Source: Agarophyton chilense (lineage: Eukaryota; Rhodophyta; Florideophyceae; Gracilariales; Gracilariaceae). From it: a stretch of DNA of 64,000 nucleotides. Location: the NCBI GenBank assembly GCA_030374765.1, contig JARGXX010000092.1, forward strand, positions 2,268,001 to 2,332,000, given 5' to 3'. Position 1 is the stretch's first letter. Each line of letters begins with the position of its first letter. Under the pieces are notes generated by a model. That model had not been told where the DNA came from. It saw only the letters and a list, made by a program, of their open reading frames with translations, and did no database searches. Position numbers and translations under genes: made by a program. Of the stretch, positions 6,802-43,382 are shown piece by piece.

Positions 6802-9529
6802 ATTTGTTGACGACATGCGTGACACAGACGGTGTCATGGCCTATCTTGATAAGAATGATATTGCAAGAGTCAATTTAAGAGGTATTGATTCTTAGATGTC
6901 TGCCTTGTTTCAAGGCTCTGAGAGGAAAGCTTTGCATGATTACTTGATATTTTTGGTTTAGCTAGGCGGAAAGTGTTTGTCATGTGGTTGAGGGAAGCTG
7001 ATAATCAGGCACCCGTTTTGTAAGATACAGCTTACATTCAAGTTTAGTGATACAAACAACGACAACGATGGTGCCTTCATCCCACCTACCACAATGCAAT
7101 GAAGATTCAGGAGCACTATCCATTGACGAAAACGTTTGTTGTTGAGGAAAGTCAATTGCAAAACAGGTGTCAAAGTACTACGGCACAGGCAATACGGAGC
7201 AGTGGGCTGTAACATACGCAGTACTATCTATTATGACTTTCGTGACCCGCCCTACTCTTCCTCGCTGAGACTTATGCGGAGAGAGACTGATTGTCTGAGA
7301 GTTTGGTTGCCGTGGATCAGCTCCTGCATGCCTACGCATACATGCAACGCCATACACGTATTTCGCTCGCAGAGAAATTTGACTTCAGCCATATACCTCT
7401 CGAAACGCAAGAGGTTTGAAGCTCTGAAATCCCGCCATTTTCGTTTCCCATTCTTCCGTTTTCATCCCCTGCCTTTCCCACTTCAACCCATCCTCTCCTG
7501 TTTACTGTCGCCTCTTCTCCTGCTGCCCACCGTTGTACATTACCGTATCTGTTATCCACGCTTGTGCGATACCTTGCACGTTCATTACCACATCTCACTG
7601 AAGCGCTTTTGGGCATCTCCTTTCCGCGCTTGTGCGTTCACGTGCACGCTTATCACTGCATCTTGTTTCAATGATTTGAGATAATATGAAACGCTTTTAC
7701 TGCATTTTCTTGCCTCGGTTTTTCATAACATGCACGCCCATGAATTATCTAAATGCTCTACTCGTTCGTTGCCGACTTAACTTGCAGCAACCATGCAGTG
7801 TCGTTCTGCCTCGCAACGATTGTGCTCGTGCATCATGGTTACACTCTTCTACATTAATGCATCCTCGTTGTTTGCCTCCGTGATATGATATCTCTCTTCT
7901 ACCTTTCAACCATGGCGAACCTCCGTTCCCTCTGTTTACGACTGTTTATAACAAAAGAACTTGAACGTACGGTACTGTTTCTCGTTTGCAAACAACGTGT
8001 TCAAGTATATGACGTGTATCGTGCTATCTTTCCGCAAAGTTCCTGATGCGAATGATTTCTGATTCTCTCTTTCATTTGTTTGGCCTTCTTCAGCTACCTT
8101 TCACCGTAACTTGGCGCTTCTACTGCGCTCGAACATGGTCCCGGAAGCCACGGATCTCAACTTTGTTCTGGCTGACGCGATGACGGTCCCTCGCTCCTTC
8201 CGCAGAGTCCTTGTTAATACCTACACACTTCAACTTCGCCATACAGCCGATCCTTCGCTGGCTCCCGGCACGCTCCCCGTCAGCGCCGTTGCGCCTCAGG
8301 TTTGGTGGACAAGAGCAGGCTCCTACTGGCCAAGCGATTCGAAAGCGCCAAGCAATATTCATCCCCCTTCGTCGAGTTTCTCTACTTCGTGAGCCACACA
8401 TGGAACTCTAATAGAATGTACCATACAACGTAGTGCATCCGGCACGAGGGAACCCCTGTACCACCCTCGATGTTGAGAGGCTTTGGTCGTTCCGGGTAGC
8501 TCAATCCTTAAAACCAATGGAGATGCCACTGCATCTCAATCCAATGAGCAAAAGAAAAATACCAAAGATTCTGAGTTCTAGTTTTCGTCTAGAACGACAC
8601 CACAGTCTGAACTCGTGTGCGCTTCTATCAATCTTGGCACTGTACCTCCCCTCCGTCTAGATGATCCGGGAATTTGCGCAAATGTGAGATCATGCATATT
8701 TCCTTGCCGTTTTTCCCCGACTCGCTTTAACAACACTTCTCCATCCCGCCCTCGGTTTCCTGTTGGCCTTTTGCCCCTATGGTTTCCTTGTTACGGAGCT
8801 CCGTCTTCAATGTTGGTGTTGCGGCGTGGGCAAGGATTCACGACTACCCCGCTCCCACAAACCACTGTTCCGTATCATCTGGCTCTTTTTTTGTAACGTT
8901 CAACCAATTTGACGCACGGGCCTCGAAAGAAGAAAAGCAAACTATGATCTTTTCGCCAGCGCTCTGTACTACATGGAGAAATCAGCCGGATACTCATATG
9001 AACTTGGTGGTCAGACTATTTACTTTGAATGCTACTCTTGTCCTTGACCTGTTGGACAGACGTCAGGACAGTTGTAAACTTGTAGTCCATTTATTGCGAC
9101 AAGCTTCGAATTCTGTAGTACTTATATCACAATTTTGTAGATCAATTGGCTCAATTTCGTTACAAAACGGCAGACGAAAGGCAACATAGCTGTATCGAAC
9201 AAGTAGCGTACTTGTATGTCTCTGGTAGGTTGCAGAACGTCGAATTTTGCCTGCATGGCGAACAGGAGGCGTACATTTTTCGGACTCATGGCGTTCAAAA
9301 ACGGGAGAGTATGACATTTGTACGCCACAGGTAGAAATCGGTTGCACAATGATAGCCTTGCAACGACAGGCGTACAAGCTTTACAGAATTTTATATAGAT
9401 AATTCCACGCTAATGGTAGTGGTTACACAAATGGCGTACTTTAGCTTTAATATTGCACGCCATTTGTTGCACTAAAGTGTACGCCATTTGTTGTACTTAT
9501 GAAGCGATATACTTTTCCTAGGGACAATG
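6802..9529. other. Gene-poor region with repeated GGCGTAC motifs
   Basis: No protein-coding gene can be supported. About 7440-7540 is strongly pyrimidine-rich. From 9268 to 9485 the heptamer GGCGTAC or its complement occurs five times (9268, 9320, 9369, 9433, 9479), and 9428-9492 is a near-palindrome built on the same motif. These look like subterminal or terminal repeats of a DNA transposon rather than coding sequence. Confidence 0.45.
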
Positions 9530-9803
9530 AACCAACCTAATCACCATCTTGGTGAGTCCTGGAAATCCTAAAGTGGTTCCCCACAAAAGGGCACCTATAG
9601 CATCAGTTCCTAACCGTTCTGAGCTATAGCTCTTGTTCTGAGGATACACTCTACTGTTGCGCGTTTACTGACCTTTTTCTACAGCATTCTGTGTGTGTGC
9701 GTTGTTTTCTCTACTGTCACCAGGATATTTGTGTGGTCACAAGGGTTGTCGAGCCGATCTCGAGTGCATTACGTACCGCCGTATCTAGACATCCCCCTCG
9801 TGA
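9530..9803 (+). mobile_element. PIF/Harbinger-type transposon, arm A left part
   Basis: This 274-bp segment aligns along its whole length, in inverse orientation, with 21533-21807. Shared landmarks include the CACCATCTTGGTG box, the block around AACCGTTCTGA and the stretch CGAGCCGATCTCG. It stops at the TSD of the inserted gypsy element and resumes at 20907. It contains the 5' leader and first codons of a Harbinger-like transposase. Confidence 0.75.
9799..9803. repeat. Left target-site duplication CGTGA
   Basis: CGTGA directly precedes the 5' LTR and is repeated at 20902-20906 directly after the 3' LTR, a 5-bp duplication typical of Ty3/gypsy integration. Confidence 0.88.
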
Positions 9804-10681
9804 TGAAGAGCAACGTCCTCCAGGGAGTTTTTTGGGGACTTAAGTTTTTTCCGGAGCCTCCGGCGTGCAACCTCGTTATGAGTAGGAGTAATCCGTCTTT
9901 ACGGCGATAGCCGGAACGCCGGTGATGCACCGGCGGGACCGGGTGCCATACACGTGGCCGTAGCGCCCGCGCGACACGTGGCCGTAGCGCCCGCGCGACA
10001 CGTGGCCGCCAGATTGGCCCCTTTTGTTAGACGGACATTTAGCTATTTAGGATAGACTTTATTTATTCTATTCTACGGTGACTACAGTACTTAGGCCGCC
10101 GGCCTCGCGGCCGCCGGTCCAGTAAAGCCTCCCCAACAAGGGTGATCTTGGTCTTCCAGATCTTGGCTCTGGGTCGAACCGCCTGCGCGGATATACAACT
10201 CCTTACGGAGGGATTTCCCGTGGTGCACGGCTTCCCAACCCCCTTGGACGTTCAAGCAGCCTTCGTGTGTTGGGTATCTATTCCCGCTTTCGTGGTTCCG
10301 CCCGTGTATACGGGTTGCTACACCCGGCAGTGCCGGCTATTCCCGAGTCCCCTCTTGCGACTCGTGGTCAACCTCGCCCTCTTGCCTCCGTTCCCATTTT
10401 CCTCCCCTTCATTGGGCAATTCCCGCTCTTGCGGCTCGCACTGACACCTGTCGTGCTCGCCACTCTCGTGGGTTTTGCCTCCTCAGAGGATACGCAAGCA
10501 CCGCTTCAGCGGATATCCTCGGCTTCTTTCAGCCTCCCTGCGCCCGTCGCGACGGTTCGGCTCCGGCTTACACCCGGCATTGCGCGCCGATCCCTGGGAG
10601 GGCTCTACCGCGCCGGTTACCTCGTGAGAGGAAGATCCGGACGTCTTCGTAGGTTTTCCCCCTTGGGGGCATTGTCCTACA
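9804..10681 (+). repeat. 5' LTR (878 bp)
   Basis: It is almost identical to 20048-20901. The main difference is a 24-bp tandem unit present twice here (9954-9977, 9978-10001) and once in the 3' LTR, plus scattered substitutions. It starts TG and ends CA. An AT-rich stretch around 10038-10075 may hold the promoter or polyadenylation signal. The high LTR identity implies a fairly young insertion despite the broken genes. Confidence 0.92.
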
Positions 10682-10683
10682 AA

Positions 10684-10700
10684 TTGGTCTCCCGACTTAG
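10684..10700 (+). other. Primer-binding site of the gypsy element
   Basis: TTGGTCTCCCGACTTAG begins two bases after the 5' LTR. TGGT is the complement of a tRNA 3' ACCA end, as expected for a tRNA-primed retrotransposon. The tRNA species cannot be named from this sequence alone. Confidence 0.6.
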
Positions 10701-10804
10701 AAGTCAAGACCGCTTGTGTCCTCTCTGAGGTTGTTTTCCGTTTAACGGGTTTTCTCCGGTCTCACCGGTTTGCTTTCTATTCTTCCGTCGAGACCGTGTG
10801 GCCA

Positions 10805-12948
10805 ATGCCGAGGAAACCGCCTAGCATGGAGCCTCCTGCAACACGCAGGCGTTCCCGCCAAAGCGGTGATGCCAGAGACACTGATGTTCCACAGGCCCTG
10901 GCTCCAACACCCCTTTCCCGGGAGATACCGGTCACCGGCACTGAAGACCTGCAGCCCGATTCCGGGTTAACGACCGTCGCAACGGTGGTTTCTCCGCCTC
11001 CGCGGTTGGTCGACCAAGCGCGGATTGTACGCTTGGAAGAGCAGCTCCGCTCCCTGCGGGCTGCTCACAATACCCTCTCGAGGGAGTTCACGTCTTTACG
11101 AGGAAGCCTCGCTAACCCCCCTCCAAGTGAGTTAGCCAAGGATATCCGCGTATTGCGGTCGGACGTCAATACACTACTCGAGTGTTTTGGCGCTCCGTCT
11201 TCTTTCGCAGAAGGTATGGAGAATCGCTTCGAGCGTCTCCGAAGCCGACTTGAGTCGGTCGAAAGGACGTGAACCTCGCCCGCTAACGCGGCTAGACCGG
11301 TTGTCTCTCATTGAGAGACCCAGTCGCGGAACCGGAAGAGCTGGAAGAACCGGGATTCTAACCGTAAGCACGGACACCCGTCCGACTCATCATCTGAGTC
11401 GGACAGTAAACCGAGTGACTCGGAGAGTTCCGATTCGTCGGGGAGCGATGACCCACAGGATCGTTATGGGCGCTCTTCCCGCTCAAAGCGGTCCTCTGCC
11501 ACCTACGGGGCCATCCGGTCGCGCCCCAAGGGTCGGCGACATCCGGGCCTCAAACCCTTGAAGCCCACCAACCCTCTGTACAGGACACTCCTGTCTTACC
11601 GGTATTACCGGCTAGAAGATTCCTCTTTAGGTCGGACACCGCGTGACACGGGTAAAGTGAAAGACTGCATCAAGTGGATGCAGCTTTCACTTAGTAACCA
11701 GTCGTTTACTGGGGATGACCCAATTCTGGTCTTGGATTTCCTACACCGCTTTGTAGCGTAAGCCGATATACTCGGAATGAACGAAGGACAAGCCTACGTG
11801 GCGCGACCCTACTTTCTACGGGGTGTCGCTGAAGATCAGTTTTTGTCGGTTCGGGGCTCGTCGCGAGCCTCCGAAGGAGGTGTCACCTGTTGGCCCGAGG
11901 CCGTGCAGTATCTCCTGCGTTCCTACGCAACCAACTCCGCGATACAGGCGGCGATACTCGTTTTGCGAGACACTCGACAACGCTCCAGCGAGCTCGAGAC
12001 CGATTACTCGGTACGCCTGAATAAGGCTTTCCACCGTTGTGGTAATGTATACCCCGTTGGGGAACGCTGTACGATTTTCATTGATGGCTTGGATCCAGCC
12101 ATCAAGACTCTTGTCCCCCGTTACAGGGAACAAGAGCCGAAGGTGACCTACCTTGAACTCGTACAGTTTGCCCGCGCAGAGGGAGATGCACTACGTGCAC
12201 GCAATCCGGGAACCCGGTCGAAGGCCGCTAAGGCATTGCTGCTTGAGTTGGACTCTTCTTCACCGTCATTTGCGACGGATGGCATCCCCAAACAGGGTTA
12301 TGACAATATGAATGTCATTCATCACGATGGTTTATCTATTCCGACAACGGATTACCGTCTACGACGGATGGCTCGGTTGACTCAACCGCAAGGGACACGG
12401 AGAACGGGCAGGTCTTTTATCTTAATGACCGCCGCACTCCGGCCCCCCGTATGCCGTACTCGAACGGAATGATACGAAGTCAGCGCCCTGGATGGGTTGG
12501 AAACCGGGAACCCGGAAGTTACACCGATGCTCGGAATGCCGTACCGCGAAACGCGGGAGTGACGTTGGTGTGCCATTTGTGTTACGAGCGCGGGCACACC
12601 TCCCCGCAATGTTTTCTATCGCTACGCGATATGGCGCGAGTGGTGGATAATTACGAAGCCCTCTCCCCGCAGGAGAAGGGTTCCGTGCCACTCACGTCAT
12701 ATCTCCGCGCGAAGACGGACTTCCCCCAACGCATTGGCTCACACTCCGAATTCTCGGTACAAACCGGCTCAGCCGGCACGCGCCGCACCAGCGCCAAACC
12801 ACGCTGGTGGATCTCAACTCGCTCCTGCAATAGCTACCGTGCAACGGAATCATGCACTCGTTGCCGAGGAAGTCCGGCCTTCGCCCGACCAAAACCCTGT
12901 ACAGGGAAAAGAATAGAGGGAGTCTCCCCTTCGGGAGAGGCGTCCTAA
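10805..12948 (+). pseudogene. gag of the gypsy element, broken
   Basis: From the ATG at 10805 one frame runs to about 12340 with three in-frame stops and no shift: TGA 11270-11272, TGA 11312-11314, TAA 11759-11761. The reading then changes frame near 12350. The N-terminal part has a coiled-coil-like helix (RIVRLEEQLRSLR) and a Ser/Asp-rich stretch. The middle resembles the gag capsid-type retrotrans_gag region (YSVRLNKAFHRCG, IFIDGLDP). A CCHC zinc knuckle, CHLCYERGHTSPQC, lies around 12571-12612. The segment 12735-12916 reads more naturally in yet another frame. A TAA at 12946-12948 separates it from the protease. Confidence 0.82.
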
Positions 12949-12951
12949 GAG

Positions 12952-13655
12952 TTGAGGCTGACGACGCTCGAGGCGCCGATGCCTCGCTCCCCGGTAAAAA
13001 TCCTGACAAGGAAGGACACCGCAGACGCGGACTCTAAACATCTCGGTGTTTTGCGTCGACCGTGGATACGGATTAGAAATAACCAGATCCGGGATAGAGT
13101 CTTGGTAATGGCCAAGCGTAACTACAAGGTTTACGCTGACCTTGGTCTGCACACGCAGTTTATGGTGAGACATCTCACTGCCCTGGATACAGGTGCTGGG
13201 CCGGACTTTATTGTGGAATCGGTTTTACCCCCGCCATTGCGGTCAGTCATCCGTTCTGAAACGATACCCGACGTCTCAGACGCCAATAACAACCCGTTGA
13301 AAACGGTTGGGGTGATCGACCTGGTCGTCAGGCTAGGGCGGATGGTGGTTAAACTAACTTTTATTGTGTGCCGCTCGCTGGCCGCGCAAGTTATACTGGG
13401 ATGTGACTACTGCGACAGGTTTGTCGACGCCATCCGCCCATGCCTTAAGCAGGTGGAACTTGAGGACGGATCGACCGTCCCCATTGTTCGTCAACCGCTG
13501 AAGCGGGCATCGAGGAAACACGTTCCTCTACCTGCTGCGCAGGAACCCACACCGGCGAACCGGGATTCTACGAAGCTACGCGTTGCCTCGTCAGTCACCA
13601 TACCCCCGGAGAGCCAGGTTATGGTTTCAGTCAATTCCCGTCAACACGGTCTTAG
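12952..13655 (+). pseudogene. Aspartic protease domain of the gypsy element
   Basis: The protein contains ALDTGAGPDFI (about 13180-13215), the DTGA active-site motif of retroviral-type aspartic proteases, and a downstream VILGCDYCDRF segment matching the conserved ILG strand. It is in the same frame as the zinc-knuckle end of gag, separated only by TAA 12946-12948. A frame change near 13655 links it to the RT frame. Confidence 0.82.
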
Positions 13656-13682
13656 ACGGATGCATTTCCGACCTCGTCGGTT

Positions 13683-16600
13683 CCCACACCTGACACCAGG
13701 GCACAGCCTACGAGCTACGATAAGATAGACCCGATCAAGGCCCTCGAGGACCTGGACCTGAGTCATGTACCGGTCTCACACCGGGACCGCTTACGCGGAA
13801 TGCTACGCGAGTTTACCACAATGTGGGACGGCTCACTGGGTCAGATCAATACAACCGAACATCGGATAGAATTGGTACCGGACGCACGTCCGGTTGCACA
13901 ACCCCCTTACAGGGCGGGACCGAAAGCTCGGGAGGAGGAAGAATTTCAGGTGGACAAGATGCTCCGTGCTGGAGTCATCGAGCCCGCCCAATCTCCTTGG
14001 GCTTCACTGGTGGTGCTGGCCCTCAAGGCTGACGGCACGTGGCGGTTTTGCGTTGACTACCGCCGCCTCAATGCCGTCACCGTGAGGGACACCTACCCGA
14101 TTCCGCGCATGGACGAGTGTATAGACTCGCTCGGGGACGCTACCGTGTTTACGGCTCTGGATGCTAACTGGGGCTACTGGCAAGTCCCAGTCCGGGAAGA
14201 GGACCGAGACAAAACCGCGTTTGTTTGCCACTCGGGTTCCTACCGCTTCAAGCGGATGCCGTTTGGTTTAACCAATGCACCGGCCACCTTTCAAAGGGCA
14301 ATAGACATACTGATGTCGCGTTTCAAGTGGCGCACGTGCCTTGTCTACTTGGACGACATCATTGTCTTTTCCAGAAACCTGGACGATCACCTGACCCACG
14401 TGCGGGACGTGATGACCGTACTGCAAGACGCAGGAATAACCCTCAAGTTGAGGAAGTGCGAGTTCTTCACCGACACGGTGAAGTATCTCGGGCACGTCAT
14501 CCGTCCAGGACGGTTAATGATCGATCAAGTTCGTATCAAGTCCCTCTGCGAGGCGAAGGAGCCCCGTACTCAAACGGAGCCCCGATCCTTTTTAGGTCTG
14601 GTCAACGTCTATCGACGGTTTATACCGAGTTTCTCGGATATCGCCGCTCCGCTAAAAGCGCTACTGCGGAAGGGCCAGCCACCGAAGCTTGCGCCATTTA
14701 CCACCGATCAGTCGGAATCTTTTCGCTCTTTGATTAAGGCAGTTACGACAGCTCCCATCCTATCCTTGCCCAAACCTGGGCTTCCCTACTCCATCGACAC
14801 CGACGCCAGCGACCACCAGGTGGGCTGCGCACTGTTCCAAACCACCCCCGAGGGGAAACGCAAACCAATTGGCTATTGGTCCCGCACGCTGAACGTCCAC
14901 GAGCGCAACTACTCGGTCTCCGAGAAGGAGTGCCTCGTAGTGGTCTGGGCGCTATCCACTCTGCGCCCATACCTCATGGGCGTTCATTTCACCGTATACA
15001 CGGACCATGCCTCGTTGAGGTGGGTTCTGAACATCGCAGATCCTTCTGGCCGCTTAATGCGGTGGCGCCTCCGCTTAGCGGAATTCGACTTCGAGGTCGT
15101 CCACAAAAAGGGTGTCCAGAACACCCAAGCAGACGCCCTCTCTCGATTACCTACGACAGGTGAAGCACTTGCCGACCCGGAGGTCGACGAGATCCCGTGC
15201 TTTACCTTGGAAGGGGAAACACCGACGGAGTCGGATTGGCCCGAAACCGGGGAAGACACCATGGAAATGGATGAGCTACTCGCAGCGCGCGACAATGAAA
15301 CACCCGTACCCGGGACCTTTGTACCCATCTCCACCGAGGAGATGATCCGAGAACAGTTCGGCGACCCGTTCTGCACGCGCATACGGGCCAGCTTAAACGG
15401 TGGAGAGGACCTCCCGTTCGAGGTAAACGACATCGGTTACCTCGTCCGGACGGTGGACCACCGATCCCAGATCGTGGTCCCCCACACCCCGCAAACCAGG
15501 GTGCTCCACCTCTCACACTACCCGACCCTCGGGGGACACTCCGGTGGGAGAAAACTTTATCTAACCCTGCGAAGGGACTTTTATTGGCCCGCTATGGCGG
15601 TTGATTGCTACGCTACGGTGCAGTTCTGCACCCAATGCGCAAAGAACCGGGTGAAACTCCAAAAGAACTCCAAACAGATGAAGCTTTTCCCCGCAAGGGC
15701 GCCCCTCGAGTTTGTCGCAATCGACATTCTCGGGCCTTTACTCAAGACGCGCAAGGGAAACAAGTTCCTCTTGGTTATCACTGACCGCTTTTCGAAGCTG
15801 GTGCGCACCGTACCTTTACGGAAGATCACCGCTTTCACGGTTGCGAACGCCTTCGTTACGCACTGGGCGTTCGTTTAAGGCCCTCCGATAGAGGTTCTTT
15901 CCGATAACGGTAAGCAGTTCGCCTCTAAGTTCTTTCAGGACGTCTGCCGCATCCTCGACGTCAAGAACCTGTTTACTACCACCTACCACCCGCAAACAAA
16001 CGGGCAGGTGGAACGCTTCAACCGCACCCTACTCGCGTCGCTACGCTCCTACGTATCCGATCACCCAATGACGTGGGACATTTATTCTGATGATATAACT
16101 TACGTCTACAACACGCAGGTTCACCGGACAACGGGTCTGACTCCCTTCGAGCTTGTGCTCTCGACGACACCCCCGCCAGTGGCGGTCGAACCCCAACACA
16201 GGGTCAACTCTTTCCCATCCGTGGGTCAATACCGCCTCAAGTGGAAGAACTGGCTTACCAAGCTCGAACCGGTCGCCCGGAAGTCCATGGAACGTGCCCA
16301 AACCGCCTACAAGCGAGATTTTGATAACCGCTTACGCGGACCACTACCGGCACCGCCCAAGCCGGGAACCTACGTGTTCGTTCGCCGGGAGTACTACCAC
16401 CCCCGGACCGACAAGCGTCACAAGCTCTCGCCTGTCGCTGAAGGTCCGTTCCGGGTCGTGTCCTCCCTCCCCGGCACCGTTGTGGTGGAGAAGAACGGCG
16501 ACCACGAACGTCTTTCACAAGACCGCATTGTAGCCGCCCCATCGCCGCAGGCGGAAAACGCATTAGCCCCCGTCGAAACGGCCTCGGATACCACGGGGAC

Positions 16601-17891
16601 AACGGTGGCACCACGCCCCGCCGTGGTACCGCACCTCTCACGGGGTCTCTCCGATATACCGACTTTATCGGAACCACCGGCAATGCCGGAAACACCTGGC
16701 CCTCGCGGCCAGCTACCCTTACGGGCGCCGCGCAGCGGTATCTATACCCGCCATGCGGTTAGCCCACCATCACCCGTCGCTCCGTCTAAGAAGGGGGAGG
16801 GGACCCGCTCAATCGCGGAAGCATCGCCATCGCAACGGAAGTTTAACCGGACACCCCGGGCAAGGCCCCCGAGCGGGCAACCGGCATCGTCGCCGGACGC
16901 CAATCCACTCCCGCGGGACGCGGCGGTCAACCCGACCGCCACGCAACCCCGCAAGGGGGACCAAGGCGCTCGAAGACCCGAAGCCGGGAAGCGAGACCCT
17001 ACGGACGCTCCGCATCGCGTGGAAGCAACTGAGGGCTCCCCGCACATTCGCGGTCGCACACAGAGCGTTTCGGTCGATACCGGTACTCCGGCGGGCGCTG
17101 CGCAAGCAGGTCTAGCGAGCCACTCCGTTGAGAACGGTACGAACCCCATGGGGGAAAAGGGGCGCGAAGACAAGTCGAAAACCGACTCCCTTGCCGAACA
17201 ATCGGAGCCAACCGTCCACGACGGTCCGACCACCCGTCCTCAAGGTCACGTGACCCGGGCGGAAGATCGGACCAATGGGCACCCGGCATCCCGGTCATTG
17301 GCTGACAGCCACCCCGCGGAGGCGGATCGCCGGGACGGTGAACCACTCACCGCCCACGGCGCACCGCACGGCGGAAACTGCCCACCAATGGGAACGCCGC
17401 ATGCCGCAAATCAAGCGGAGGCCTCCGGCGAACCGTCACCAAGACGGAAGGACCCCCGCAAACTCGCGGTAAGAGCAGACTTCAGGGAAGCCCCTACCGC
17501 CCAGCGGAAACACAACCCGGCCGCGCCGGCAACTTCCGCGAAGCGGTACGGCAGCCCCGGCAACCCGGCAACAACCGCACAGCGGAATGACAAACCGGGT
17601 GACCCGGAACAGGCGACGACGAGCCCAGCACCACGCGGCGCTGAGGCTCGGTTCACCACCACCCGGCAAGGCCGGCGAGTTTACCTGCAGGAGTACGTCC
17701 TCGACCGAATCGTCGGACATAGCTACGATGAGCACGGGGTGCTCCAGTACCGGACCCGCTGGTACGGATACGGGCCGGAGTGGGACACCCCGGAGCCCAT
17801 CGAGCACCTCCCGCGCTCCGCAGTGATGCGATACCACCGCCTTGCGGGGACCGCACTCCCAGCCACGCTGGTAAACGCCCAAGAGGGATAA
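13683..17891 (+). pseudogene. pol (RT, RNase H, integrase, chromodomain), one internal stop
   Basis: Domains in order: reverse transcriptase with YRRLNAVTV, FTALDANWGYWQV, MPFGLTNAPATFQ and the catalytic YLDDIIVFS (about 14347); RNase H with SIDTDASDHQVG (about 14795) and YTDHASLRW; integrase HHCC zinc finger (about 15507-15640); integrase core with AIDILGPL (about 15720), LSDNGKQF (about 15900) and GQVERFNRTL (about 16003) carrying the D, D, E residues. An in-frame TAA at 15876-15878 cuts the integrase core between the first and second Asp. After the integrase C-terminal region, a low-complexity Pro/Ala/Arg/Thr spacer (about 16550-17650) leads to a chromodomain (EYVLDRIVGH ... LQYRTRWYGYGPEWDT, about 17690-17860). 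That places it among chromovirus-type gypsy elements. Confidence 0.92.
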
Positions 17892-18223
17892 ACCGTGAAC
17901 ATGGAATGGAATGGCTGATGGCGCCACGCGCCATCTCCGTCCATGCCCCAACGCGGGGAAGGAAGCAACCGCTCACGCTATCCCAACGTCGTTGGTGGTC
18001 GTGCCAGTTACCTGGTCCGCGCGCGAAGGGCCCACCGTTAAACACGGAACTCCTAGCTAGGCTGGTTCCCTGCAACGCCGGAACCCCGGTTGAAGGCTGG
18101 TACCCCGGAAAGAAAGAAGTGGACTTGGGAAAGGGCGTCGGAAAGGCGACCCTCTTCTTTTATTTCTCACTACTGGCAAGGGCGCCCTAGTGGCGCCGCC
18201 CTACATTCTACCGGAAGCTCCGG

Positions 18224-19999
18224 TCATTCCTCCGCACGAGGTGGACCCCCGCCCAGGCGGTTGGCTAAGGCATCCCGCATGGCGGCCACATCACCCGAGA
18301 TCTCGGAAGGGCGAAGTCCCACCTCCCGAAGGAAGCGCGCGATGACCTCGCCCCGCTCCGCGCTAGCGGCAGTTGCGGGCGGGCCCGCCACCGATGGAGT
18401 CGGATAGGAATCCGTTCGCACGGCATCAGCAGCCCCGGATGGAGCCGCACCACCGTATTCAACGGAGCCCTCACCGGCCTTGCCGGACTCGTCATCCCCC
18501 ATTGGAGCGTAACCCGAATCTCCCGGTTCGTTGTCGACCATCGGGTCACCATCCGCATAGCCGCGGTAATAGTCGCTCGAGTCGACATACCCTCGCGGGT
18601 GGTCGGCCGGGACTTCACGCGGCGCATGCCGGTTGGCTTCCGCTTCGTCGCGGCTGATCTCGTGGTACTCCCAGGGGTCGAAGTAGATGAAATCCCCCGC
18701 TAGCGCGGTATTCCTCCCGAATCCGGGGCCAGACCCGCGACGCGGTTGAATGCGTTGGGAGTTCTCCAGGTGGACCTCATCCCACTGGACCCCCTCCACA
18801 AAGTCGAGGAGGCCCAGCATCTCTTCTTCGTTCGCCTCCTCCCCGAGGGGGATGCGCATGTCCAAACGGCGGATCGCAGCCCGCACACGCGGTGGCATGT
18901 ACCACAATCGGTATTGATCGTACGCCTCAGCGAGGATAAACGCCGCAGTGCGGACGGCCCATTCGCTTACCACGACGGACCACCACCCCGACTGGGGATC
19001 GTTCAAGAACGACGACCCTACATAGGTGAAGACTGGGGGCAGCTCAATGAAGCAACCCCAGCACGCCTCCAAGGAGGACCACCAGTCTGGGTGACTGACG
19101 TACCGACCACGTCGGTGAGCAGGCGCGATGCGCTCAATCTCCGTGTTCTGGTACGGTACGAAATACCCGGTCCGGGCCCGCCAACGCCGCTCATCGCGGA
19201 TGAAGTTCTGAAGGAATTTCGAGCGCAACTGCCGCGGTTGGTAGCGGAACTCTGCCCGAAGAATCGGTCGTCCCCAGCAAAGGGCTTCTTGCCGAGCGAT
19301 CGGTGTGCCCCTCCAAGCGAGGGTTTCCAATCCGTTAAGACGGTCACAGTACGACATTTCCCTGCGAGTGCGGTAAAGGTGGACGTCGAATTCGACCTCT
19401 GGCGGTATCGGGAACTCGAAAGGCGCCCAATGGTGCCTGAGATAAGCGATCCGCACACGCGCGGCCTGAGCCTCCGCAGAGGATTCACCGCGTCGGCGGA
19501 GTATGTGGTGTACCGGGATGGCGATACGATTACGCCAATCCCAGGACATGGTCACCACGCCGGGCAGGTCGCCCGGGAGCATCTCCGAATTATCGGTGTA
19601 GGACTGGATCAAATCCTCGTCGCGGACAGCCAATGGGTGAAACCAAGGCGCATACTGCAACATCGCGGAGCCATGCCAAGTTCTCGGATTTGCACCCACA
19701 AGGGCGTCGTAGGTCGGCCACTGCGGTGGGTCCGCCTGTCCGCGAAAGCGGGCGCCAATACGGCGGTCTCCGTACGCGAGGCTGGTAACATCCCCAGGGT
19801 GGGGCGCGGACCGGAAGCCGGTGGAACCGCCAAGGGCGGGAGTCGCGGATGTGTTATGACGGTCGGCGTTGGACATGGTGCGTGTTGGTGGGCTGTGGTT
19901 GGAATCAGATACGAAGAGCTTGCGTGGGATCCTTGGTGAAGGTGTGTTGGTTTCCGGAGACCCGGTGTCGGACGCGCTCTTATCACGACGAGCTGCCAT
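18224..19999 (-). CDS. Long antisense ORF (591 aa) inside the gypsy element, unknown function
   Basis: An ATG at 19999 opens an uninterrupted 591-codon frame running opposite to gag-pol, starting 49 bp inside the 3' LTR and ending about 330 bp after the chromodomain stop. No family is recognised. Composition is protein-like: rich in Trp, Tyr and Arg in the middle (WYMPPRVRAAIRRLDMRIP, WDWRNRIAIPVHHILRRR), a Ser/Thr/Pro-rich N-terminus, and an acidic Gly/Asp-rich tail around residues 440-530. No signal peptide or membrane segment is evident. It is intact although the sense genes carry at least five stops. Caution: the region is GC-rich and the opposite strand also has a 397-codon open frame (18746-19939) in the complementary codon phase, so one may be a shadow of the other. 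I favour the antisense one on length and start position. Confidence 0.5.
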   Translation of the reverse strand: MAARRDKSASDTGSPETNTPSPRIPRKLFVSDSNHSPPTRTMSNADRHNTSATPALGGSTGFRSAPHPGDVTSLAYGDRRIGARFRGQADPPQWPTYDALVGANPRTWHGSAMLQYAPWFHPLAVRDEDLIQSYTDNSEMLPGDLPGVVTMSWDWRNRIAIPVHHILRRRGESSAEAQAARVRIAYLRHHWAPFEFPIPPEVEFDVHLYRTRREMSYCDRLNGLETLAWRGTPIARQEALCWGRPILRAEFRYQPRQLRSKFLQNFIRDERRWRARTGYFVPYQNTEIERIAPAHRRGRYVSHPDWWSSLEACWGCFIELPPVFTYVGSSFLNDPQSGWWSVVVSEWAVRTAAFILAEAYDQYRLWYMPPRVRAAIRRLDMRIPLGEEANEEEMLGLLDFVEGVQWDEVHLENSQRIQPRRGSGPGFGRNTALAGDFIYFDPWEYHEISRDEAEANRHAPREVPADHPRGYVDSSDYYRGYADGDPMVDNEPGDSGYAPMGDDESGKAGEGSVEYGGAAPSGAADAVRTDSYPTPSVAGPPATAASAERGEVIARFLREVGLRPSEISGDVAAMRDALANRLGGGPPRAEE

Positions 20000-20030
20000 G
20001 CCGACTTCCTCTTCGAGGTGTTCGCCCTGT

Positions 20031-20047
20031 CTTAAGGGGGGGGGATA
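20031..20047 (+). other. Polypurine tract of the gypsy element
   Basis: A run of A/G dominated by ten or so consecutive G residues (AAGGGGGG...) ends two bases or so before the 3' LTR start TGAAGAGC. This is the expected position of the plus-strand primer. Confidence 0.7.
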
Positions 20048-20901
20048 TGAAGAGCAACGTCCTCCAGGGAGGTTTTTGGGGACTTAAGTTTTTTCCGGAG
20101 CCTCCGGCGTGCAACCTCGTTATGAGTAGGAGTAATCCGTTTTTACGGCGATGGCCGGAACGCCGGTGATGCACCGGCGCGACCGGGTGCCATACACGTG
20201 GCCGTAGCGCCCGCGCGACACATGGCCGCCAGATTGGCCCCTTTTGTTAGACGGACATTTAGCTATTTAGGATAGACTTTACTTATTCTATTCTACGGTG
20301 ACTACTGTACTTAGGCCACCGGCCTCGCGGCCGCCGGTCCAGTAAAGCCTCCCCAACAAGGGTAATCTTGGTCTTCCAGATCTTGGCTCTGGGTCGAACC
20401 GCCTGCGCGGATATACAACTCCTTACGGAGGGATTTCCCGTGGTGCACGGCTTCCCAACCCCCTTGGACGTTCAAGCAGCCTTCGTGTGTTGGGTATCTA
20501 TTCCCGCTTTCGTGGTTCCGCCCGTGTATACGGGTTGCTACACCCGGCAGTGCCGGCTATTCCCGAGTCCCCTCTTGCGACTCGTGGTCAACCTCGCCCT
20601 CTTGCCTCCGTTCCCATTTTCCTCCCCTTCATTGGGCAATTCCCGCTCTTGCGGCTCGCACTGACACCTGTCGTGCTCGCCACTCTCGTGGGTTTTGCCT
20701 CCTCAGAGGATACACAAGCACCGCTTCAGCGGATATCCTCGGCTTCTTTCAGCCTCCCTGTGCCCGTCGCGACGGTTCGGCTCCGGCTTACACCCGGCAT
20801 TGCGCGCCGATCCCTGAGAGGGCTCTACCGCGCCGGTTACCTCGTGAGAGGAAGATCCGGACGTCTTCGTAGGTTTTCCCTCTTGGGGGCATTGCCCTAC
20901 A
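20048..20901 (+). repeat. 3' LTR (854 bp)
   Basis: It matches the 5' LTR except for lacking one 24-bp unit and about a dozen or more substitutions. It starts TGAAGAGC and ends CCTACA, followed by the second CGTGA. Confidence 0.92.
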
Positions 20902-20906
20902 CGTGA
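20902..20906. repeat. Right target-site duplication CGTGA
   Basis: Second copy of the 5-bp duplication; see 9799-9803. Confidence 0.88.
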
Positions 20907-21068
20907 ATACACACGTTATCTCCATTGTTCAGGCACACCTGGCTGCTTTCGGCACACTCTCTTCTTATCTAAGAACTGTCGCTGGCAAGGCGACACCCGC
21001 TCTTAGCAATTATTTCTGTGGATACCCACTGGACCGAGACCTCTAAAGCCTTCAGTAGAATACCACAA
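20907..21068 (+). mobile_element. PIF/Harbinger-type transposon, arm A right part
   Basis: It continues arm A after the gypsy insertion. It aligns inversely with 21357-21530 (shared: TTATCTCCATTGTTCAGGCA, TTATCTAAGAAC, TTTCTGTGGATACCCACTG). Translated on plus it reads IVQAHLAAFGTLSSYLRT and NYFCGYPLDRDL, then a TAA, matching the transposase of the inverted copy. It ends where the sequence becomes the complement of the other copy's 3' part. Confidence 0.75.
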
Positions 21069-21807
21069 CCCCAGGCGATTGAAACATCACATGCCATATA
21101 CGCAACCTGTAATGACATACTAATTCCATGCGCAGAATCGGCTTGTTTACTTTACCATTGTATTAAACATGCCATTCCACCGGACATTTTCTTCACTTCC
21201 ATCCTGAACAGTCCCGCGCTCCAATACACCCAGGAAAATCGACAATTGCATAATCACTCCCAATTCTTCGTAGATCATCTTCCAAAGGCCTCAAAAGGTA
21301 CTTCTCTCTAAAATATTGTAGCACAGTGGCGCAAAACTGTTTTGTTGTAGAAAATATTGTGATACTGCACTGAAGACTGTACAGGTCTCGGTACAGTGGG
21401 TATCCACAGAAATAACCGCGAAGAGCGGGTGTCCCCTTGCGAGCGGCGGTTCTTAGATAAGAAGAGAGTGTGCGGAAAGCGTCCAGGTGTGCCTGAACAA
21501 TGGAGATAATGCGTGTATTCACGAGGCAGATGCTCAGATGCGGCGGTACGTAATGCACACGAGATCGGCTCGACAACCTTTGTGATAACATAAATAACCA
21601 TGTAACAGTAGAGAAAACAACAAAAAAACAACACACACACACACAGGGAAAGCTGGAGAAAAAGGGCGGTAAATGCGCAACAGTAGAGGGTATCCTCGGA
21701 ACAAGAACTATAGATCAGAACGGTTAAGAACTGATACTATAGGTGCCTCCTTGTGGTAAACCACTTTAGAATTTTTAGGACCCACCAAGATGGTGTTTAG
21801 GTTGGTT
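21062..21807 (-). pseudogene. PIF/Harbinger-type transposase fragment, arm B
   Basis: On the minus strand the frame from 21642 encodes LSSYLRTAARKGTPALRGYF, YREKYLLRP-like and DFPGCIGARDCSGWK. The last holds the first catalytic Asp of the DDE_Tnp_4/Harbinger nuclease. Past the stop at 21193 the similarity continues in broken form: KCPVEW, then MELVCHYRLRIWHVMF and a PG pair, matching the second conserved block (ElvcD..l.iWH..fG.PGs). The TIR-like CACCATCTTGGTG box lies near 21785. The element is truncated and inactive. Its 5' 450 bp is duplicated in inverse orientation as arm A. Confidence 0.75.
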
Positions 21808-22193
21808 GGTTGTTGGCTGGCCTTCGCCGTCCTCACCTGGGCGTTGCGCCCTTTACTGTGCCAAGAACCAAGCAAGTACTGTGCAGTGAGGCCAACACGT
21901 GACGTGCTACTACATAATTATCTAAATAATACCAAACAAAAAATTTGGTAATGACGCCTTACACTGTAATTTGAACACAGTGCTTCCTAATTAAATTTAT
22001 TTGGTCGCAGTCTTTCCATGAAGTAATCCTTCTCATAACTTCTCGTAATCGAGAATAGCCCAAGCAATAGATTATGAATGCCGTTTGGCGACTTCGTAGT
22101 ATTTCGATCGGTCGAACTCAGATGCATCCAGAATGCTACAAATATAGTTGACTCATGGAATCAAATATGTGATACGAGATGATCTTGATTAAT
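21808..22193. other. Spacer between Harbinger fragments
   Basis: No gene seen. AT-rich, no clear repeats; separates arm B from a second Harbinger fragment on the same strand. Confidence 0.4.
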
Positions 22194-30557: not shown

Positions 30558-30728
30558 TTGCCTTCTTCAACACAAACGCTCGCAGCGCCCCCTTACCGGT
30601 TCCGTTGTTGTACTTACGAGGGTACCAACAGCAACCATCTTCATCCGTGTGCCCGATAACCTTGAGCTCTGATAACCATCCATAGCACAAATTTTCCATT
30701 TCAATAGGGGCCCTATCACACAAGCGTC

Positions 30729-33704
30729 ATGGCGGAGATAGTAACGCCTGGAACGGGAGAGCAGCTGGGCACTCCGCAAACACCCTTACAACCTTTTAAC
30801 GCAGTTTCTGGAGCCACTCAAACAGATGAGCTGGTACTCACAGTCGCAGGCATGTTTGCTGAGTTCCTCGAGAACTATGGTGAAGTTCAACCGCCCGCCG
30901 ATGACGGAACGGGTCGTTTGTATCCACCGAGCCCACCGGAACCCCTTTATGTCGGACAGCTTCGAACGCTCCGAGATAGATTGCGTACGACTCTTTACGT
31001 TGATTATTCGCATGTCATGGCTTATAATCAGGAGCTCAATGTCATTTCTGAGGAGTACTTCCGCTTTGAACCTGCTCTGCGTGAGCGTACCGGTCAGTTT
31101 ATTGTCAAGCACCTCCCGAAACTCCATCCGTCCAATATCTCCAGGAAAAGCGAATACGACCCGAAGAGTTATTGGTTATCGATCTTCAACATGCCAACTG
31201 TTCTCAAGCTGAGAGACTTACGCTCTGAACAAATCGGAATGCTCACATCCATATCGGGAACCATAACAAGAACGTCTGAAGTGCGCCCTGAGCTCTTGGT
31301 TGGATCTTTTTCGTGCAACGATTGCGGAGAGCCATTCCCTAATGTTGAACAGCAATTTAGATATACCGAGCCTCCGATGTGTCAGATGTGTCAAACAAAA
31401 AACAATTGGAAGCTAGATGTGGAGAAAAGCACGTTTGTGGACTGGCAGAGAGTAAGACTCCAAGAAAACGCACAAGAAATCCCGGCTGGTTCAATGCCGC
31501 GCACTATCGATGTAATATTCAGGAATGATACTGTGGAAAGTGCAAAGGCTGGTGACAAAGTAACCATTACTGGTTCTCTCATTGTTATTCCAGACGCTGT
31601 GAGCTTGGCAAGGGCTGGTGAACGTGTTCGGGCTGTTCCAAAGGGCGGTGCAGGACTCAGGGGAGATGGGTACACCGGTGTAAAAGAGTTTGGAGTCCGC
31701 GAACTTGTGTATCGAACATCTTTTCTTGCTTCTCACGTGGCTGCATCTGACTCCAAGCCAGGATCTACGTCAGTAAGGGGGGAAGATGCTGATCATGAAA
31801 CATATGAAAGCGTGCTTCATGGGTACACAAGGGAGGAACGTGACGAAATAGTGATGATGAAGACTTCATCACGTCTCTACCAGAAGATGGTGAACAGTAT
31901 CGCCCCAACCGTGTACGGTCACGACGAAGTTAGGCGCGGCGTGCTGTTGATGCTCTTCGGTGGCGTCCACAAAGAAACCGGAGAAGGGATTTCGCTGAGA
32001 GGGGACATCAATGTATGCATCGTCGGAGACCCCTCTACGGCGAAAAGTCAGTTCCTTAAGTATGTTGTTGATTTCCTTCCCAGAGCTGTGTACGCAAGTG
32101 GCAAGGCTTCATCTGCCGCTGGATTGACTGCATCAGTTGCTAAAGATCATGAAACTGGAGAATTTTGCATCGAAGCTGGCGCCCTTATGCTCGCAGATAA
32201 CGGAATCTGTTGCATTGACGAGTTCGATAAAATGGACATCAAGGACCAAGTAGCTATTCACGAAGCAATGGAACAACAAACAATCTCTATTTCAAAGGCT
32301 GGAATACACGCAACTCTCAATGCTCGCACTTCAATTCTCGCCGCTGCGAACCCTATTGGAGGAAGATATAATCGGTCGAGGACTTTGAAACAGAATCTTA
32401 CGATGACAGCTCCAATCATGTCTCGATTTGACCTTTTCTTCGTCGTTCTTGACGAAAGCGAAGAATCGTCGGATTTCAACGTAGCGCGGTTCATTGTAAA
32501 CGTTCATAAGGGTGGTGCCGCTGCCCAGCCGACCGAGTTCAACAAAGGCCAACTCCAGCGATACATCAGGGCCGCGAGGTATCTTAATCCGGTCATTCCC
32601 CCTGAGTCACGAGATTTATTGGTTCAGTCGTACAAGCAACTGCGTCAGGCAGATTCTTTCGGGGGCGCCCGGACATCATATAGAATCACTGTTCGGCAGT
32701 TGGAAAGTCTCATTCGTCTTTCAGAAGCACTTGCCAGACTTCATCTGGATTCTTACGTGCGGCCTCAGTATGTTAAAGAAGCTGTACGCCTTCTGCGCAA
32801 GTCGATTATTCATGTGGAAACGGAAGACATTGACTTAAATAACGATGACGACAACAGTGATGAGGACAAACCAGATGACAAAGTTGATCTCGAGGTCGAT
32901 GATATTGATGATAAGGGGGAGTCTCAACCAGAAAGAAGAGATGGAGGGCGTCCTAGACCTACACGAGGTGCGAGAGCACCTGATTCGGATTCAGATGAGG
33001 ATGACGACGATGATGATATCAAGCCAGATCCGCGGTATCTCCCTCCCAGAAAAGCTGTACCGAATAGAAATGCTGATGCAGGTGGAAATCCTAAGGATCG
33101 AGGGGACTTGAAGGAACATAATGGAGATGATTCCAACAAAAATCACGAAGTTCGAGTTGGGGAAAGTTCTTCAGTAGTACAAAAGCAATCAAAAGACGAC
33201 GGCGTTGCACCGACAGGGAAAAGTCCAGGTATGGAAACTCAAAAAGCTCGGCCTGAAGAGCAGCTTAAACCATCCCAAGAAGAGGGTGGCGCTTCTAAGG
33301 ACAAAGGCCCTCAAACACAATCGAGCGGTGCACCAACTTCTACTAATACCCCCTCAGGTGAGAAAATATCGATTGGCTTCAATGAATTCAGAGCTTTAGT
33401 GAACAAAGTAGTAGTACACCTGAGAAAGCAGGAAGCACTTGGCGCCTCATTGGGAGCTGCAGCAAAGCGAAAAGACATAATTATGTTCTTGCTTGAGGAT
33501 GCCGATCGTCAGGGCGGTTCCGGTGGTGCATTTGAGTCCGAGGAGGCTTTGAAGCAGGAAGCAAAACGTATGAGGCTCGTTGTCAACCGAATGATCAAGA
33601 AAGAAAGGGTCCTTGTCGAAGTGCCGAATATAGAGCCAGAAGCTGGGGTCCTTTCACGGGATGACCGGATTTACGCTGTCCATCCGAACTACGTTGTGGA
33701 GTAG
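30729..33704 (+). CDS. MCM6: DNA replication licensing helicase subunit MCM6
   Basis: This 991-residue protein is a subunit of the MCM2-7 replicative helicase in the nucleus. Visible motifs: MCM-type zinc finger CNDC (196-199) and CQMC (218-221); Walker A GDPSTAKS (433-440); Walker B CCIDEFDK (494-501); sensor AAANP (about 538); arginine finger SRFD (565-568). After the AAA+ lid an acidic, low-complexity linker of about 170 residues (about 700-870) precedes a winged-helix C-terminal domain (about 880-990), which is why it is longer than the usual 820-830 residues. The opening TDELVLTVAGMFAEFLENY is typical of the MCM6 N-terminus. Single exon. Convergent with the XPG gene 64 bp away. Confidence 0.95.
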   Translation: MAEIVTPGTGEQLGTPQTPLQPFNAVSGATQTDELVLTVAGMFAEFLENYGEVQPPADDGTGRLYPPSPPEPLYVGQLRTLRDRLRTTLYVDYSHVMAYNQELNVISEEYFRFEPALRERTGQFIVKHLPKLHPSNISRKSEYDPKSYWLSIFNMPTVLKLRDLRSEQIGMLTSISGTITRTSEVRPELLVGSFSCNDCGEPFPNVEQQFRYTEPPMCQMCQTKNNWKLDVEKSTFVDWQRVRLQENAQEIPAGSMPRTIDVIFRNDTVESAKAGDKVTITGSLIVIPDAVSLARAGERVRAVPKGGAGLRGDGYTGVKEFGVRELVYRTSFLASHVAASDSKPGSTSVRGEDADHETYESVLHGYTREERDEIVMMKTSSRLYQKMVNSIAPTVYGHDEVRRGVLLMLFGGVHKETGEGISLRGDINVCIVGDPSTAKSQFLKYVVDFLPRAVYASGKASSAAGLTASVAKDHETGEFCIEAGALMLADNGICCIDEFDKMDIKDQVAIHEAMEQQTISISKAGIHATLNARTSILAAANPIGGRYNRSRTLKQNLTMTAPIMSRFDLFFVVLDESEESSDFNVARFIVNVHKGGAAAQPTEFNKGQLQRYIRAARYLNPVIPPESRDLLVQSYKQLRQADSFGGARTSYRITVRQLESLIRLSEALARLHLDSYVRPQYVKEAVRLLRKSIIHVETEDIDLNNDDDNSDEDKPDDKVDLEVDDIDDKGESQPERRDGGRPRPTRGARAPDSDSDEDDDDDDIKPDPRYLPPRKAVPNRNADAGGNPKDRGDLKEHNGDDSNKNHEVRVGESSSVVQKQSKDDGVAPTGKSPGMETQKARPEEQLKPSQEEGGASKDKGPQTQSSGAPTSTNTPSGEKISIGFNEFRALVNKVVVHLRKQEALGASLGAAAKRKDIIMFLLEDADRQGGSGGAFESEEALKQEAKRMRLVVNRMIKKERVLVEVPNIEPEAGVLSRDDRIYAVHPNYVVE

Positions 33705-36700: not shown

Positions 36701-37335
36701 TTGGCAAGTTTGGGCGCATTGGCTTCGTTGAATACGTGATTGTTTCGAGTAGCTGAAACGCCGAACTTCTTCCGTGGGGTATTCGAAGGGCTTGGATTCT
36801 GATATACAGGCTGAATCTCGTCCGCTTCGTCTTCAAGTGCGTCGGATTCGATAATTGATTTTGAAGTTCCACCTACATTTTTTAGAATACCCTGAGTGAG
36901 AGGGCCATTTCCCAGGGCTGGAATGCTCTCACTGCTTTTTGCTAGATTTCTGCCGTTCTTTCTGGATATTGCGTCCCCCACAGCTTTCTTCTTCATACGA
37001 TTTATTAGTATCTTTTCCGCTAGTCTGCGAAGCTTGGCCTCATGCTTTTCTCTCTGAGCGCGTCTGGATGCGACTGTTCGACGTTTGATAGCCGGAGTTG
37101 CTCCGTCGAAGACAAGGATCGGTTTCACAGAAAGAAATAAAAGCTTAATGCAACGACGAAAGACACCGATAAGATGAGCATTTCTGACTCTGGCTCCCTC
37201 TGCATCTCGCATCGCCTTCACAAGCTGGGTTAGCCATATGGAGATGTCGACGGCCAGAACCTTGTTGTGGACATAATCATTGCTCACACGTCGTCCAACT
37301 GGAGCTAAAAGTTGCCATAAACCATGAACTCCCAT
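33769..37335 (-). CDS. XPG/RAD2 (ERCC5-type) structure-specific endonuclease
   Basis: This 1188-residue FEN1-superfamily nuclease of nucleotide excision repair makes the 3' incision. The N-nuclease domain is at residues 1-100 (MGVHGLWQLLAPVGRRV, LAVDISIWL, LVFDGATPAIKRRT). A long disordered acidic spacer of about 750 residues, typical of XPG/RAD2 rather than FEN1 or EXO1, separates it from the I-nuclease domain (LGIPYLEAPMEAEAQCAFL about 875; GVITEDSDAFLFGA) and the helix-hairpin-helix (GVRGVGIVNAMEIMEAF about 955). Near residue 1095, QTRISDFY fits the PCNA-interacting PIP box QxxIxxFF. It ends in basic and Glu-rich tails. Single exon, ATG at 37335. Tail-to-tail with MCM6. Confidence 0.93.
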   Translation of the reverse strand: MGVHGLWQLLAPVGRRVSNDYVHNKVLAVDISIWLTQLVKAMRDAEGARVRNAHLIGVFRRCIKLLFLSVKPILVFDGATPAIKRRTVASRRAQREKHEAKLRRLAEKILINRMKKKAVGDAISRKNGRNLAKSSESIPALGNGPLTQGILKNVGGTSKSIIESDALEDEADEIQPVYQNPSPSNTPRKKFGVSATRNNHVFNEANAPKLAKVVDDTEDFTQNSESENEQIILPSDLQDLDDATLVGLPTHMQSKVFRQIKQEQRLRHRENMLQQQDNPTEFSRTQIDGFLRHTALNRKISNVRNVINNNSGVRNRIASDSRREFVFEELHETEQDVVDSDSEDDILRSSYLTKDSDVRPKDILSQIRAAQGDSLDTSLQMSSKVEEKRHTEKQLSSGVGWASRVLSGRGGLELSRITTGGMGCGPNFRSTSEKRDREEDEEVGVFKQNDMPSPSDSVQKQWDPLPEGDNDSDSDDVEWEDGAGKSDSENSGRTFELEEISEGTARKVSVSDEKGSLITSVIEKKGALSTATDSVRKKQITDAFYARPDSSPVDGHNSGGLNSRGPQEIRERQQGSVTDIDKSVAAADIDFDEDIRTVGKVDFPGRKTKHGIPPNSPPLPFTNEKTSQRRKRDPAKSAGQLSRNQIGSADPSKSVLRSSSVRQQIATASQKNSFESDDTTSPSTKTIPHGVCIQRNEDATDETNARKSRTVQEEENDIQLAIALSLKQNTSDILKSSTSDKLSHLEVEAKRKRKTVEQPKKLTILVDEKYGTTRNAPDETDKRLEETQIDLSFKSPDAIGFTSPENLRTVEKERGGQKPEGEMTLMEMERLYADLDSEAQLFRKQRDTHVGAVETISDEMYSETRDLLKLLGIPYLEAPMEAEAQCAFLNTAKIVDGVITEDSDAFLFGAKVVYRQLFADGRFAETYDTQDIKSSLGLDRDLLIRLAHLLGSDYTPGVRGVGIVNAMEIMEAFPGVKGLSEFLEWTKKVTVLDKEPEESVMKGTSTDAVRRRFCWKHRNMKRNWVVREGFPNPAVSEAYLNPIVDSNKDRFKWREINFDGLARFCWEKFGWERTTFENAVGPLRKELLKRKGLQQTRISDFYKPHRFAKIRSKRLQNAVKGMAGEDAEEIMATLVPRIKRRKTSSMTYTSTMDLSPEEEGQMLKMLEEAEAKTNGEEREDVEITHRAD

Positions 37336-43101: not shown

Positions 43102-43229
43102 CTGTGCACGACATGAAACAGGGGGTGGACGGATGGAGAGAGAGAGAGAGCTTGCTGTGTGAGTGACATGGGAGAGAGAGAGAGAGAGAGAGAGGCAAAA
43201 GTGAGTCAGGGTGAGGGCTTAAAACATAC
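43102..43229 (-). other. Intron of the phosphoserine aminotransferase gene (128 nt)
   Basis: Donor GTATGT at 43229-43224, acceptor GTGCACAG ending at 43102, phase 0. It is dominated by (TC)n repeats on the transcribed strand, which may serve as polypyrimidine tract. Confidence 0.88.
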
Positions 43230-43382
43230 CTCCATAATTCCCATCCCGGTACTGTCCTTATTGCAAAACTCGGCACCGGCGGTACGCATGACCCAATCGG
43301 AGAGACACGCAGGGCCAGCGGAGAAGTTTCCAACGGCGCGATCGCGGCCGATAGGGAGCTGAGGCACAGAGTTGGGAGCCAT
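43230..43382 (-). CDS. serC: Phosphoserine aminotransferase, exon 1
   Basis: First 51 codons from ATG 43382: MAPNSVPQLPIGRDRAV, then NFSAGPACLSDWVM (the FSAGPA motif that opens all SerC proteins), ending STGMGIME at the donor site. There is little room for a transit peptide (about 18 residues before the enzyme core), so cytosol is possible. Confidence 0.92.

Follow-up and report, generated by a model that had tools for sequence, protein, structure and literature searches.

A stretch of 64,000 nucleotides from the red alga Agarophyton chilense (contig JARGXX010000092.1, positions 2,268,001 to 2,332,000), referred to here as the window, contained an 11.1-kb, chromodomain-bearing Ty3/gypsy element with a 591-codon ORF on the strand opposite to gag-pol. 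This antisense ORF encodes a protein, is maintained by purifying selection, and is an integral part of the element. Taken as a whole, the results are best explained by an accessory gene of a red-algal chromodomain gypsy family that lies antisense to gag-pol and whose product would act as a regulator in trans; the probability of this reading was put at roughly 0.7.

Structure of the host element

The element was bounded by LTRs with TG...CA ends at positions 9804 to 10681 (5' LTR) and 20048 to 20901 (3' LTR), both on the forward strand, the latter being the putative source of an antisense promoter. The two LTRs were identical in 840 of 879 aligned columns and differed in length by 24 bp. Copies of a target-site duplication, CGTGA, flanked the 5' LTR (9799 to 9803) and the 3' LTR (20902 to 20906), and a polypurine tract (20030 to 20047, forward strand) ended in a run of G up to the 3' LTR. 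The element thus carried the TG...CA LTRs, target duplication, and polypurine tract by which LTR retrotransposons are recognized. A 24-bp unit at 9952 to 9999 was present in two copies in the 5' LTR and in one copy in the 3' LTR.

The sense genes were broken. Along the simplest path, the open pieces on the forward strand were 10628 to 11272, 11315 to 11761, 11762 to 12472, 12304 to 12948, 12949 to 13728, 13656 to 15878, and 15879 to 17891. In the gag-like region (10628 to 12472), stops ended the pieces at 11272 and 11761, and another stop lay just before 11315; the label “gag” rests on position, because the piece at 11762 to 12472 had no match in a Pfam scan. The pol region (12304 to 17891) was identified by Pfam domains, with reverse transcriptase (RT), RNase H, and an integrase zinc finger in 13656 to 15878 and an integrase core remnant and chromodomain in 15879 to 17891 (RVT_1, E = 6.8e-36; RT_RNaseH, 3.3e-35; Integrase_H2C2, 3.7e-11; Chromo, 8.4e-06). 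The chromodomain (PF00385) occupied residues 606 to 652 of the latter frame and scored 26 bits against a cutoff of 25.1. By this predicted chromodomain at the integrase C terminus, the element is a probable chromovirus of the Ty3/gypsy group. Several Agarophyton chilense proteins were among the best 120 pol relatives listed from the protein database.

Gag-pol had been described in the original prediction as carrying at least five stops and several frame changes. Five stops were found along the simplest path, but the frame changes numbered two, one of which, given that an 1,847-amino-acid (aa) frame exists in some siblings, may correspond to the native gag/pol junction.

The antisense ORF and its genomic copies

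The antisense ORF occupied positions 18224 to 19999 on the reverse strand, with its ATG at 19999 and its stop codon at 18224 to 18226, between the end of the pol frame (17891) and the start of the 3' LTR (20048). The predicted unbroken frame was confirmed, with no internal stop over 591 codons and a stop-to-stop frame of 619 aa. Its start had been placed 49 bp from the 3' LTR; the measured gap was 48 nt, and the proximity was retained across the family, with the first codon 46 to 49 nt from the LTR in 28 distinct copies, including that of the window, and an ATG at this place in 24 of the 28.

Four segments were distinguished in the protein: a basic, Pro/Ser-rich N terminus (residues 1 to 112; pI 10.7), a Trp/Tyr-rich core (residues 113 to 472), an acidic tail (residues 473 to 545), and a conserved C-terminal segment (residues 546 to 591). 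The composition agreed with the Trp/Tyr-rich protein with an acidic tail that had been foreseen, Trp and Tyr each occurring 16 times in the 360 residues of the core and the tail having a net charge of −11. No membrane span was found, the maximum 19-residue Kyte-Doolittle hydropathy being 0.91 to 1.45 in six proteins. An env-like third gene was considered and rejected: the ORF is antisense, these six proteins have no transmembrane segment, and the overlapping sense frame appears to evolve neutrally.

Copies were sought in 79.8 Mb of the genome (135 contigs). The 60 pol copies and 74 antisense copies that were scored, both sets including that of the window, were the best scoring of 5,246 and 1,898 first-look candidates, respectively. 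An antisense core lay downstream of pol on the opposite strand in 52 of the 60 pol copies and on the same strand in none. Spacing between pol and this core was 2,902 to 2,964 bp in 49 of the 52 (2,960 to 2,964 bp in 41) and 2,966, 3,031, and 3,418 bp in the others; the remaining 8 pol copies had no antisense-core match among the best 150 of 1,504 candidates. The suggestion that the element's own genes were dead while the antisense frame had been spared did not extend to the siblings. An uninterrupted 1,847-codon pol frame was present in 6 of the 60 best-scoring pol copies, and a 740-aa stretch of pol was free of stops in 28 of them; the antisense frame was stop-free in 51 of the 74 best-scoring copies and contained stops in 23.

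The genome also contained a second family (family B, as distinct from family A, to which the window element belongs), which was found with a database relative of the antisense protein, P0004, as the query, giving 68 scored matches, the best of 1,833 candidates. Its proteins were 31 to 39% identical to the window protein over the main match (30 loci), and its ORF was also antisense and at the same location in the element. Pol sequence was found in the flanks of 24 of the 30 loci, on the opposite strand in all 24, and in 23 of them this sequence was the chromodomain. No stop interrupted the matched stretch in 21 of the 68 scored copies, and under a strict full-length criterion, 3 of 28 copies were intact. 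The RT/RNase H region of one family B copy was 57% identical to that of family A over 458 residues, and the association between gene and element therefore predates the split of the families. Between the families, the antisense protein has diverged faster (31 to 39% identity) than RT (57%), and comparing the two families is a natural way to learn what matters in the protein.

Selection on the antisense frame

Family A comprised 30 loci, from which two exact duplicates were dropped to leave 28 distinct copies. The ratio of nonsynonymous to synonymous polymorphism (pN/pS) among these was 0.614 in the antisense frame (95% bootstrap interval, 0.51 to 0.74; n = 28) and 0.995 and 0.920 in the two shifted frames of the same strand. 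For the C terminus of pol (387 codons; n = 25 sequences covering enough of the region), the ratio was 0.655, and the antisense ORF is thus kept about as strongly as this part of pol. The signal in family B was weak, at 0.72 (0.63 to 0.84) versus 0.83 (0.73 to 0.95) and 1.00 (0.87 to 1.13) in the shifted frames. Variation within families dilutes the signal of selection, because most copies probably decay after insertion.

Comparison between the families gave a phase-specific pattern. In a DNA-only alignment of the window ORF with one family B ORF, identity in the core was 0.555, 0.598, and 0.328 at antisense codon positions 1, 2, and 3, respectively. No reading frame was built into this alignment, and 990 of its 1,055 core columns were in phase. 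Outside the ORF, neither the 3' flank nor the 400 bp upstream could be aligned between these two sequences, which shared only chance matches of 7 to 11 bp there. A codon-position bias had been named in the original prediction as a sign of coding, and it was found: between the families, identity was lowest at the third antisense position, and within family A, position 3 had a significant excess of variable sites (P = 0.002), as it did in pol (P = 0.035) but not in family B (P = 0.19). Sites with a shared variant at codon positions 1, 2, and 3 numbered 46, 44, and 68 in family A, 133, 109, and 125 in family B, and 39, 35, and 50 in the pol C terminus, and sites with a private variant numbered 122, 109, and 143, 174, 187, and 205, and 100, 90, and 113, respectively; such plain counts are weak evidence alone. 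The proposal of an antisense accessory protein gene is accordingly favored by pN/pS in family A and by codon-position bias between the families.

Homologues and possible function

The expectation that the protein would match no known family was borne out. Pfam gave no family for the window protein at E values of up to 1 or up to 10; for nine members of the protein family, the only names obtained at E values of up to 10 were two weak ones, E3_binding and SH3-A_UBE2O. Searching the PDB with a profile gave no meaningful match (best E = 0.19; next, 0.89). AlphaFold models built from four sequences each had a pLDDT of 34.5 for the whole protein and 36.0 for residues 95 to 475, too poor for a fold search. 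In scans of genome contigs and viral contigs with the window protein, no relative was found. Among about 5.8 billion database proteins, with about 7,990 best candidates scored per search, there were three relatives, designated P0002, P0003, and P0004, and a profile of nine members recovered the same three as the single sequence. P0003, from the red alga Gracilariopsis chorda, was 56% identical over 96% of the query, and P0004 was 40% identical over 66%. The core and C-terminal segment aligned among the window protein, these relatives, and family B, with many invariant residues; the N terminus was more variable and was missing from P0002.

The protein may regulate the element in trans, as has been proposed for GENE23 of Grande and ORF4 of Retand. 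This regulatory or nuclear role is put forward tentatively, by analogy with those proteins; no motif or fold hinting at such action was found in Pfam, the PDB, or the models. Only slightly less probable is that, instead of regulating transcription, the protein contributes to the structure or assembly of the particle or counteracts silencing. Conservation at about the level of the pol C terminus and a Trp/Tyr-rich core with no known fold would suit such a protein, which is likewise supported by no motif; nothing specific spoke against it.

An origin by capture, in which a cellular gene of a red alga was transduced into the element, had been offered as an alternative to a new accessory protein and is improbable. 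Two features would fit a captured gene: the lack of any relation between the protein and gag-pol, together with its reverse orientation, and the annotation of P0003, which is that of an ordinary hypothetical protein. No host source was found among the best candidates scored, however: the three relatives were all that the database searches yielded, none of the evidence placed the protein in a Pfam domain family, and the copies whose surroundings were checked adjoin pol.

Predicted antisense transcription

A probable poly(A) signal, AATAAA, was located at 18159 to 18164 on the reverse strand, 59 nt past the antisense stop codon. The same hexamer lay 58 to 59 nt past the stop in 26 of the 28 distinct family A copies and 49 to 52 nt past it in 27 of 29 family B loci, from which duplicates had not been stripped. 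AATAAA occurred anywhere in 200 nt in 22 and 59 of 2,000 dinucleotide shuffles and inside the stretch from 45 to 70 nt in 2 and 9 of 2,000. That its place has been kept although the surrounding DNA of the two families does not align favors a distinct antisense mRNA, about 2 kb long and convergent with gag-pol. With the first codon only 46 to 49 nt away, the LTR is where an ordinary 5' leader would be expected to begin. An LTR-driven antisense mRNA is therefore quite probable from these sequence signals: transcription would start inside the 3' LTR, as the start-codon gap of less than 50 nt suggests, would run convergently against the gag-pol transcript, and would presumably be terminated by the AATAAA.

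With such an arrangement, the transcript itself could be what functions, as double-stranded RNA against gag-pol RNA, the protein being secondary. Convergent transcription would permit this, and roles of antisense RNA are discussed for such elements in the available text of one study (PMC7264820), but selection on antisense codons and saturation at antisense third positions are not predicted by a function of RNA only, and we consider this explanation rather unlikely, a little more so than capture of a host gene.

The overlapping sense frame

The open frame on the other strand, first reported as 397 aa, is real and spans 411 codons from stop to stop, at 18704 to 19939 on the forward strand. It could in principle be the real gene, for example an env-like one, with the antisense frame as its mirror image, and 410 or more of its codons were indeed uninterrupted in 19 of the 28 family A copies. 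The comparison of both frames among siblings that had been called for distinguished them: in the DNA that they share, family A pN/pS was 0.945 (0.76 to 1.22) in the sense frame and 0.525 in the antisense frame. Moreover, the position saturated between the families (0.328), which is the third codon position of the antisense frame, is the first of the sense frame; the longest counterpart of the latter in seven family B copies was 221 to 271 codons; and it had no Pfam match. With no sign of selection, the sense frame is a by-product and not a gene, and the mirror-image explanation is very improbable.

A functionless frame open by chance is the least credible explanation, since, although the GC content of about 0.63 in the region favors long frames, none of 2,000 mononucleotide shuffles of 17892 to 20047 reached the 607 open codons observed there (maximum, 400), and the homologues P0003 (G. 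chorda) and P0004, the phase-specific conservation between families, and pN/pS all argue against it.

Relation to known antisense genes

The HBZ protein of human T-cell leukemia virus type 1 (HTLV-1) carries a bZIP domain, whereas the Pfam scan of the window protein gave no family; HBZ was compared by description only. The likeness lies in an antisense gene that is expressed from the 3' LTR region, as would be the case for the element here. HBZ and other retroviral antisense genes are mentioned in PMC11963269 and PMC7264820.

In the portions of PMC7264820 and PMC11963269 available, land-plant elements supply most of the antisense ORFs described beside the 3' LTR, with their function unsolved. 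Those of plant Ty3/gypsy elements, termed aORF-3R, include gene23 of maize Grande and ORFs of rice RIRE2, Silene Retand, and Phaseolus PvRetro13 (PMC7264820). Like them, the ORF described here is antisense, separates pol from the 3' LTR, is present in most copies (in antisense orientation in 52 of 60 pol copies), and is conserved similarly to the genes of the element (pN/pS of 0.614 versus 0.655 in pol). Unlike them, it has a red-algal host; the proteins were compared by Pfam domain content. In Retand, 97% of clusters have an antisense ORF with the TRP28 domain (PF04195) between pol and the 3' LTR, and TRP28 is confined to flowering plants according to the available text (PMC11963269). The position and orientation are shared with the ORF here, but PF04195 was unmatched in its protein; neither a TRP28 nor an Smc domain is present, because the antisense protein had no Pfam match. 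Retand belongs, moreover, to a nonchromovirus lineage (PMC11963269), whereas the element here has a chromodomain. Boty of Botrytis cinerea is an LTR element from outside plants with an antisense ORF (PMC7264820), and the two are alike, by description only, in having this ORF between pol and the 3' LTR.

Antisense ORFs near the 3' LTR are thus already known; the protein family, unrelated to those of the plant elements, the chromodomain element, and the red-algal host are new within the scope searched. No antisense ORF in a red-algal element was found in the literature covered, which consisted of titles and the openings of abstracts, with subscription journals mostly outside it, and no frame-by-frame selection test for such ORFs was found in the available portions of PMC7264820 and PMC11963269. 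In the present element, it is the antisense frame that selection singles out as coding, and its protein family, without Pfam matches, comes from another major lineage of eukaryotes. A new protein family, a chromodomain element, and a different eukaryotic lineage together suggest that the arrangement arose more than once.

Lysine content

Low lysine content in the antisense protein was common to family A, family B, and two database relatives, and the few lysines that remain are at different places in the two families. Between 1 and 7 lysines were counted per protein in the 28 family A copies and between 5 and 9 (0.8 to 1.6%) in five family B copies; the G. chorda protein P0003 contained 0.2%. 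The window protein contained 0.7%, versus 1.8% predicted from base composition. Lysine made up 4.6, 3.7, and 4.7% of three pol pieces, 2.5% of a gag piece, 2.3% of a host carrier frame, and 3.1% of P0004, and the scarcity is thus neither extreme nor universal, given the prediction from base composition and the values for gag, the carrier, and P0004. Lysine deserts are the subject of PMC10169902. It is conceivable, but doubtful, that red-algal chromoviruses have an independent and old equivalent of the antisense gene of retroviruses, in which a lysine-poor protein expressed from a bidirectional 3' LTR is shielded from ubiquitin-dependent removal. If this were true, lysine poverty would shield the antisense protein as it acts on the element as a regulator or works against silencing.

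Neighborhood of the element

A large inverted repeat (9524 to 9803, 20902 to 21068, and 21357 to 21813), with arms about 450 bp long and 82 to 90% identical around a loop of 288 bp, has the gypsy element inserted in one of its arms. Both CGTGA copies match positions 21519 to 21523 of the inverted-repeat arm split by the element. The interrupted repeat is probably an older element, of either the foldback or the terminal-inverted-repeat type. A second pair of inverted arms, at 47946 to 49729 and 50322 to 52009, was 92 to 96% identical and contained long ORFs with 24-bp tandem repeats, for which weak Cornifin matches fell under the Pfam cutoff. Long single-frame host genes were observed at 30708 to 33704, 33769 to 37335, and 59369 to 61519 (an MCM6-type helicase, an XPG-type nuclease, and a CNNM/CorC transporter, respectively), which fits an intron-poor genome. 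Frames for a class V aminotransferase and an MFS transporter lay close together at 42085 to 46274 on the reverse strand, where GC content was 0.58 to 0.59, above that of much of the window.
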